64,000 nt of DNA from Alphaproteobacteria bacterium (GTDB lineage: Bacteria; Pseudomonadota; Alphaproteobacteria; UBA8366; Aestuariispiraceae): contig JANSXE010000012.1 in assembly GCA_024743195.1 (NCBI GenBank), positions 62,001 to 126,000 of the forward strand. Reading direction: 5' to 3'. This document shows, piece by piece, positions 1 through 935 of the stretch (its first letter is position 1; each line of letters opens with the position of its first letter). Under the pieces are notes generated by a model that did not search any database, was not told where the DNA came from, and saw only the letters and a list, made by a program, of their open reading frames with translations. The translations under genes and the position numbers were made by a program.

Positions 1-2
1 CG

Positions 3-110
3 GACGACCAGGACCGCCGCTCGGTCAACATCCAGCGCACGGTCAAGGGCTCCGTCTTCCTCTCCGACTTCGCCGACCTCGTCGTCGACAGCGGCCGCCG
101 GGCTGGTTGA
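3..110 (+). CDS. C-terminal end of an unknown protein (partial, 5' end outside window)
   Basis: Reading the third frame from base 3 gives 35 residues ending in ...DFADLVVDSGRRAG followed by TGA at 108-110. The codon choice is GC-rich like the core genes, and the frame stops immediately before the AT-rich repeat cluster, so this is probably the true end of a chromosomal gene whose start lies left of the window. The fragment is too short to assign to a family. It could also be an unused frame. Confidence 0.4.
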   Translation, partial: DDQDRRSVNIQRTVKGSVFLSDFADLVVDSGRRAG

Positions 111-140: not shown

Positions 141-433
141 GGGGACACAATACTTTTCATTTTTCGGGTACACAATACTTTTTGTTTTCGGGGACACAAT
201 ACTTTTTGCGTATTCGTCTTTATTCGCATTTTTCGGGGACACAATACTTTTTGCGTATTCGTCTTTATTCGGGGACACAATACTTCGTCTTTATTCGGGG
301 ACACAATACTTTTTTCGTATTCGGGGACACAGTACTAATTATCCGGGTCGGAGCACTCAGAGAAAAAAGTATTGTGTCCCCGAAAAACACCGAAAAAAAG
401 TATTGTGTCCCCGGAAAAAAACATTGTGTCCCC
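141..433. repeat. Cluster of ten GGGGACACAATACTTTTT-type repeats, seven direct then three inverted
   Basis: Copies of GGGGACACAATACTTTTT begin near 141, 166 (GGGT variant), 190, 235, 271, 297 and 323 (variant ending AGTACT). The reverse complement occurs at 364-381, 395-412 and 415-433. A 36 bp unit made of the motif plus GCGTATTCGTCTTTATTC is duplicated exactly at 190-225 and 235-270. The stretch is strikingly AT-rich against its surroundings. The opposing orientations meet around 340-360, so a transcript could fold into alternative long hairpins. No credible gene is present; the frames crossing it give only repetitive peptides. From memory, similar ACACAAT motifs lie beside Y1/IS200-like (REP-associated) transposase genes in other genomes, but no such gene is visible here. 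Confidence 0.9.
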
Positions 434-485: not shown

Positions 486-935
486 TCAGCCGGTCGAGTC
501 CGTCGCGTCTTCGGGGAAGATCAGGGCGCCGTCGGGCGCGATCGACACGAAGGGGTTGTAGGCCGCTTCCCAGAGGAAGCCGTCGGGATCGGCGAAGTAG
601 CCGGAGTAGCCGCCCCAGAAGACCTCTTGCGCCGGTTTCACAATCACGGCGCCGGCGCGCTGCGCCTGGTCCAAGACCCGATCCACCTCTTCCTTGGACC
701 GGGTGCAGTAGGCGAGGCTGAAGCCCCGGAAGGACGAGCGGTCGGCCGCCACGCAGGCGTCTTCGGCCAATGCGTCGTGCGGGTAGAGCGCGAGCGCGAT
801 CCCGTTCAGGCGCAGGAACAGGATGCTCTCTGTGCTGGACGGCGCCTTGGGCCATCCGAGGCCCCCGACATAGAACGTCTCCGCCCGTTTCAGGTCGCGA
901 ACGCCCAGCGTGACGATGCTCAACCGCGGCTCCAA
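486..935 (-). CDS. VOC family (glyoxalase/bleomycin-resistance fold) protein
   Basis: This 149-residue protein has the single vicinal-oxygen-chelate module expected of small glyoxalase-like proteins: an N-terminal strand SIVTLGVRDLKRAETFY and a C-terminal GYFADPDGFLWE, the usual motif carrying the second half of the metal site. The substrate is unknown; members include lactoylglutathione lyases, dioxygenases and drug-binding proteins. The start is taken as TTG because AGAGGAGG lies 7 nt upstream (about 943-950), a near-perfect ribosome binding site with no ATG nearby. It stands alone downstream of the yej operon on the same strand, about 40 nt after yejF, so weak cotranscription is possible. 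Confidence 0.85.
   Translation of the reverse strand: MEPRLSIVTLGVRDLKRAETFYVGGLGWPKAPSSTESILFLRLNGIALALYPHDALAEDACVAADRSSFRGFSLAYCTRSKEEVDRVLDQAQRAGAVIVKPAQEVFWGGYSGYFADPDGFLWEAAYNPFVSIAPDGALIFPEDATDSTG

Follow-up and report, generated by a model that had tools for sequence, protein, structure and literature searches.

Repeat cluster between two converging genes

The window, i.e. the whole stretch of 64 kb that was analysed, corresponds to C2:62001-126000 of genome G000, a 4.17-Mb draft of 31 contigs. Within it, two genes converge on a cluster of short repeats (Table 1) which overlaps with no called gene and whose GC content amounts to 0.40, in agreement with the initial annotation which had described an AT-rich, gene-free region. 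A search for GGGGACANAAT allowing at most one mismatch yields exactly 10 matches in the window, all of them located at 141-433, seven on the plus and three on the minus strand, with the switch of strand falling between 337 and 367. As dinucleotide shuffles of the window contain 1.47 such matches on average and 6 at maximum, the proposal that ten copies, seven head-to-tail followed by three inverted, form a cluster too regular for chance has been confirmed. The spacing of the direct repeats is loosely regular (about 24-50 bp). An exact duplication formerly given as 36 bp (190-225 = 235-270) is real but turned out to be part of one comprising 42 bp, both arms of which are contained in an exact array with a 45-bp period spanning 185-271; this direct duplication (185-226 = 230-271) shows local tandem duplication. 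When folded as RNA, positions 129-440 reach -119.5 kcal/mol compared to -66.0 kcal/mol for shuffles (z = -10.4), which renders the large alternative hairpins envisaged for this region possible. With respect to a plasmid origin, the cluster was searched in PLSDB and gave no match.

Table 1. Features of the repeat cluster and its neighbourhood (window coordinates; for "tag" see text).
Feature	Position	Strand	Source
Left neighbour gene, 3' end, stop TGA at 108-110, converging on cluster	1..110	+	
Copy 1, GGGGACACAATACTT, tag atttttc	141..155	+	motif scan
Copy 2, GGGTACACAATACTT, one mismatch	166..180	+	motif scan
First arm of exact 42-bp direct duplication	185..226	+	
Copy 3, GGGGACACAATACTT	190..204	+	motif scan
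Second arm of exact 42-bp direct duplication	230..271	+	
Copy 4, GGGGACACAATACTT	235..249	+	motif scan
Copy 5, GGGGACACAATACTT, tag tttattc	271..285	+	motif scan
Copy 6, GGGGACACAATACTT, tag tttattc	297..311	+	motif scan
Copy 7, GGGGACACAGTACTA, degenerate	323..337	+	motif scan
Central spacer, non-repeated, orientation changes from + to −	338..366	.	
Copy 8, GGGGACACAATACTT, inverted, tag gtttttc	367..381	−	motif scan
Copy 9, GGGGACACAATACTT, inverted	398..412	−	motif scan
Copy 10, GGGGACACAATGTTT, inverted	419..433	−	motif scan
Right neighbour gene, glyoxalase/VOC family (PF00903), converging on cluster	486..935	−	

Distribution of the motif in the genome

The initial annotation had suggested searching the whole genome for the motif and its adjacent genes, and had named uniqueness to this site together with absence near any transposase as evidence against a mobile origin. 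The motif in fact recurs genome-wide, with 94 exact CGGGGACANAAT sites versus 0 for a reversed-pattern control, and flanks the sole Y1_Tnp gene found. The fetched clusters, about 31 in number, comprise 130 GGGGACA cores, 96 of which are full cores; the length of the copies ranges from complete CGGGGACACAATACTTTTTTC down to short ones ending soon after GGGGACA. None of the 32 clusters, as grouped for the analysis of gene context, overlaps with a called gene. They sit in the gaps between called genes, mostly downstream (3') of genes, these contexts being approximate since they derive from a crude codon-usage caller by which some real genes are missed.

This placement bears on the possibility that the arrays are bidirectional transcription terminators or mRNA-stabilising hairpins selected for their RNA structure between converging genes. 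The convergent neighbours and the strong fold (z = -10.4) of the window cluster would suit such a role, as would the orientation of the 16 sites flanked on either side by a called gene no more than 250 bp away, of which 10 are convergent (P 0.0016 versus one quarter), 6 co-directional and none divergent. Most clusters, however, are same-strand arrays incapable of forming a long hairpin, a consensus scan returned 3 terminator-like sites versus 1.3 expected, only one of them inside the array, and convergent placement is, according to PMC3733652, typical of REP repeats generally. As it also leaves the conserved primary sequence and the presence of the motif around a transposase gene unexplained, we regard selection for RNA structure as improbable.

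A few further observations concern contig C15. At C15:47750-49070 (L044) two outward-facing motif clusters bound a low-GC island (GC 0.44, much below the neighbouring stretches read) which harbours two open frames. Composite elements carrying cargo between paired clusters were considered for L045, L044, L038 and L046 and rejected, their frames being read by eye as ordinary genes with no transposase remnant seen. At L045:4427-4657 (C15:63226-63456) a second dispersed element adjoins a GGGGACA cluster. It consists of about 56 bp (GCCTGATGATATCATTCGGACCCACCTGAGATCGG...) and about 70 bp (...GGCTAGGAGAGGCCGTGCAGGCGATG...) placed around an approximately 15-fold TTTCCGGG tandem; both flanking parts are also encountered, many times over, in the congener G007, and a 20-mer of it that was tested is absent from the window.

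A single Y1 transposase gene flanked by the motif

Both the profile search with PF01797 and a protein search find one copy of a Y1_Tnp gene in the genome. It is located at C15:309065-309742 (−) and encodes a protein of 226 aa which scores 52.6 bits against PF01797 (cut-off 23). The motif is present downstream of the gene at 309034 (+) and upstream of it in six minus-strand copies at 309788-309920, such that GGGGACACAATA flanks the gene on both sides in inward-facing orientation. Di Nocera et al. 2013 (PMC3733652) give the name TIRYTs to transposases with the terminal inverted repeat (TIR) consensus GGGGWSAS and refer to "TIRtrons". GGGGACAC, facing inward on both sides of the gene, agrees with the GGGGWSAS flanking TIR of a TIRYT of TnpA-Y1 subclass 2.1, and the inward-facing motif on both sides corresponds to the plan of a TIRtron.

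The protein contains the motifs NHVH, WQ and YVERNP, and the residues H60-V-H62, W99-Q100 and Y119/N123/P124, which represent the NHVH (HUH), W[EQ] and Y---NP motifs of the Y1_Tnp core in TIRYTs, are invariant in 11 homologues. Its AlphaFold model (pLDDT 86.5) has as its best solved match the E. coli REP-associated tyrosine transposase 4ER8 (Foldseek E 2.3e-07), followed by the transposases of IS608 and ISDra2. TIRYTs of subclass 2.1 are further characterised by an HTH-like (DnaA_C/HTH) domain in a C-terminal extension; for the present protein a helical extension is predicted at residues 141-208, and Pfam gives no HTH or DnaA_C match. The score against the NCBIfam model of the REP-associated tyrosine transposase, NF047646, is 67.6 bits and thus below the cut-off of 80. 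Assignment to IS200/IS605 fails as well, YVERNP being present instead of Y---Q and NF033573 scoring 15.7 bits at a cut-off of 55.

An array of iteron-like binding sites for a regulator, a partition or a replication protein might likewise consist of direct repeats such as those in the window, which follow each other at roughly regular distances (about 24-50 bp). The motif, however, occurs in about 31 clusters across the genome with a copy spacing that varies from 11 to 66 bp, these clusters overlap no called gene and lie mostly 3' of genes, and the same motif flanks a transposase, which makes this explanation very improbable.

Homologues of the transposase and their genomes

To extend the comparison, the best 80 of 574 homologue loci, originating from many phyla, were examined. 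Among these 80, GGGGWSA is present on both sides in inward orientation at 52 loci and in outward orientation at 5, and the copies surrounding them number 189 inward versus 43 outward. The distance between TIRs tracks the distance between the proteins (78 proteins, Mantel r 0.66, 0/2000), a correlation which arises mostly from the split between GGGGACA and GGGGTCA and which is weak within the close clade (r 0.17, 35/2000). Homologues of about 64-68% identity from another family of the order are flanked by the close variants GGGGACACAATACTTAATT and GGGGACACTATACTTAATT, while distant ones carry GGGGTCAGGTCTTG; the consensus resulting from the survey is about TAATTCC-GGGGACAC[CA]ATACTTAATTA. Two homologue loci show denser flanking arrays, made up of GGGGACACCCTT direct repeats (L227) and of palindromic-looking GGGGACAGCATGAGATGCTG units (L229).

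Among 385 genomes of the class, of which related ones are not independent of each other, a close TIRYT is present in 5 of the 6 genomes with at least 3 exact 15-mers versus 25 of the 379 others (Fisher P 1.2e-5). P for the co-occurrence of motif and enzyme is 0.0013 once G000 and one of two congeners are excluded. Most enzyme-carrying genomes of the class are devoid of dispersed copies of the exact 15-mer, and the enzyme is present and the motif absent in G004. Conversely, G053 harbours 6 copies of the 15-mer and the enzyme was not found in this genome, which is 77% complete; in G010, which lacks the enzyme, the shorter CGGGGACACAATA is matched once. In the congener G007 and in 11 of the other 12 genomes of the family neither the long motif nor the enzyme was found. 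In G398, G268, G321, G164 and G053 the 15-mer forms inverted pairs about 13-48 bp apart, and in these pairs of other genera both copies are often preceded by the same short tag.

A search of the relatives for an empty site corresponding to the window cluster yielded no clean one. In G007 (77-78% identity) the left gene is followed by a different IS-like element, and the counterpart of the right flank lies on another contig; the element, situated after the left-gene ortholog on C22 (L072), is bounded by terminal repeats (GCGGCGTCTGCATTTAGG) and contains a transposase-like frame which by eye appears to be of IS5 type. In G001, G002 and G004 the matches to the left gene and to a transporter are separated by about 33-60 bp containing neither the cluster nor the glyoxalase gene. 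Relatives beyond G007 are too distant to map the exact boundaries of the cluster ends.

Orientation, tags and pairing within the arrays

Throughout the genome, neighbouring copies lie on the same strand in 89 cases and on switched strands in 10. Each copy is preceded by an AT-rich tag of 5-6 bp which is common within a cluster and differs between clusters. Accordingly, the seven bases in front of GGGG have an identity of 0.83 between same-strand copies of one cluster, of 0.68 where the copies lie on opposite strands and of 0.51 between clusters, a pattern reached in 0/1000 permutations. Cluster-specific tags would not be expected of copies that had each arrived on their own, so that local duplication offers the simplest explanation, and the tags together with the same-direction arrays point to local amplification after insertion.

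The in-place duplication evident from the exact 42-bp repeat and the cluster-specific tags would suit an explanation in which the transposase plays no role and the repeats owe their spread entirely to replication slippage and recombination. Slippage, however, cannot carry a motif to about 31 unlinked clusters, nor does it explain why an inward arrangement around TIRYT genes is conserved across many phyla or why motif and enzyme co-occur. We therefore consider it very improbable.

In the TIRs flanking TIRYT genes the tag is complementary to the sequence 3' of the core, scoring 442 versus 394.6 when permuted (z 4.5, 0/2000), most strongly in register -4:16, with the neighbouring registers giving z 0.9 and 0.7. 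By analogy, such complementarity would be expected of a short stem or of a guide-target pairing like that which occurs in IS200/IS605 (PMC8266576). Self-pairing and cross-pairing between the two ends are equally good and indistinguishable, and in the window, where tags and 3' flank are both T-rich, the two do not pair. A hairpin within one unit was discarded for G000, whose single units fold at 0 kcal/mol as DNA; some single units of relatives do fold (GAATTCC...GGAATTC, -6.4 kcal/mol). From the homogeneity of tags within clusters and the complementarity that is strongest in one register it could be envisaged that the AT-rich sequence in front of GGGGACA is the cleavage target of the transposase, selected through pairing (register -4:16) with a guide that directly follows the core on its 3' side, and that repeated cutting of the same site built the tagged arrays in place, driven by the transposase and not by slippage; we consider this rather unlikely.

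Interpretation of the window cluster

The cluster is real, not due to chance, and largely explained as the TIR cluster of a TIRYT. In the reading we prefer, to which we assign a probability of roughly 0.87, it is a non-autonomous array of TIRs belonging to a TIRYT (TnpA-Y1 subclass 2.1), the HUH/Tyr (Y1) transposase whose single gene lies at another place in the genome, and the repeats are most likely binding sites which this enzyme left behind and multiplied. Its classification as TIRYT/TIR draws support from the features tested, among them that the transposase-flanking repeat is dispersed, singly or in groups, as about 31 clusters and 130 cores. Recognition of the motif by the 226-aa protein we infer from the association of motif and gene. 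Of the two alternatives raised by the initial annotation, a transposase recognition cluster or a decayed mobile element, the former is the better one, with the motif found genome-wide and around the Y1_Tnp gene. The latter is less apt, as no transposase remnant is present in the cluster and its copies are nearly perfect; the cluster looks more like a non-autonomous repeat cluster than like a degraded insertion sequence.

From the sequences we further infer how the repeats may have moved, been cleaved, functioned and become amplified. The enzyme would recognise the motif on single-stranded DNA and cut beside it, and might thereby have transferred repeat units to new sites, by moving or copying them singly or as inverted pairs. 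Once there, a unit and the AT-rich tag at its 5' side would have been duplicated locally, through the action of the transposase or through replication slippage, and same-direction arrays with cluster-specific tags would have resulted. The long inverted array between the converging gene ends could, if transcribed, form a strong hairpin, probably as a side effect and not as its purpose.

Comparison with known systems

TIRYTs constitute a large branch of the Y1 transposases, and the literature consulted does not establish which DNA they target; in G000 a TIRYT gene is linked with over 90 target-like sites that are nearly identical, and the consensus from the homologue survey as well as the covarying register could be tested directly on oligonucleotides. 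The genome shares with TIRYTs/TIRtrons a single-copy gene for an HUH/Tyr transposase with NHVH, WQ and Y---NP, inward TIRs fitting GGGGWSAS and dispersed TIR copies in clusters. It differs in that its arrays are long, mostly head-to-tail and provided with cluster-specific 5' tags, a kind of tagging not found in the available parts of PMC3733652 and PMC6006769. The case fits Di Nocera et al. (PMC3733652), who noted TIR families grouped as dimers or clusters in certain species, and adds a clear dispersed family to the subclass of Quentin et al. 2018 (PMC6006769), who assigned most TIRYTs to TnpA-Y1 subclass 2.1 and did not find REP-like repeats close to them.

IS200/IS605 elements have the HUH/Tyr fold in common with the 226-aa protein, as judged from the matches of IS608 and ISDra2 to the predicted model, but this protein possesses Y---NP instead of Y---Q and a longer C-terminal extension, and G000 lacks multiple identical IS copies. 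MITEs are resembled by the inverted 15-mer pairs in G398, G268, G321, G164 and G053; in the window, in contrast, the ends are multiplied to 7 + 3 copies and a direct target-site duplication was not identified. With the REP, REPIN and BIME sequences of GTAG-type RAYTs the repeats share their short, non-autonomous and intergenic nature, a location mostly 3' of genes, one cognate Y1 transposase and, in some relatives of G000, the inverted pairs. The G000 unit, however, has neither the GTAG foot (GT[AG]G) nor the stable hairpin of a REP and is mostly arranged in direct orientation. The window cluster is thus a REP-like element without the GTAG-tagged hairpin, and the G000 arrays most likely represent a new example of a kind of bacterial repeat which is known but little studied.
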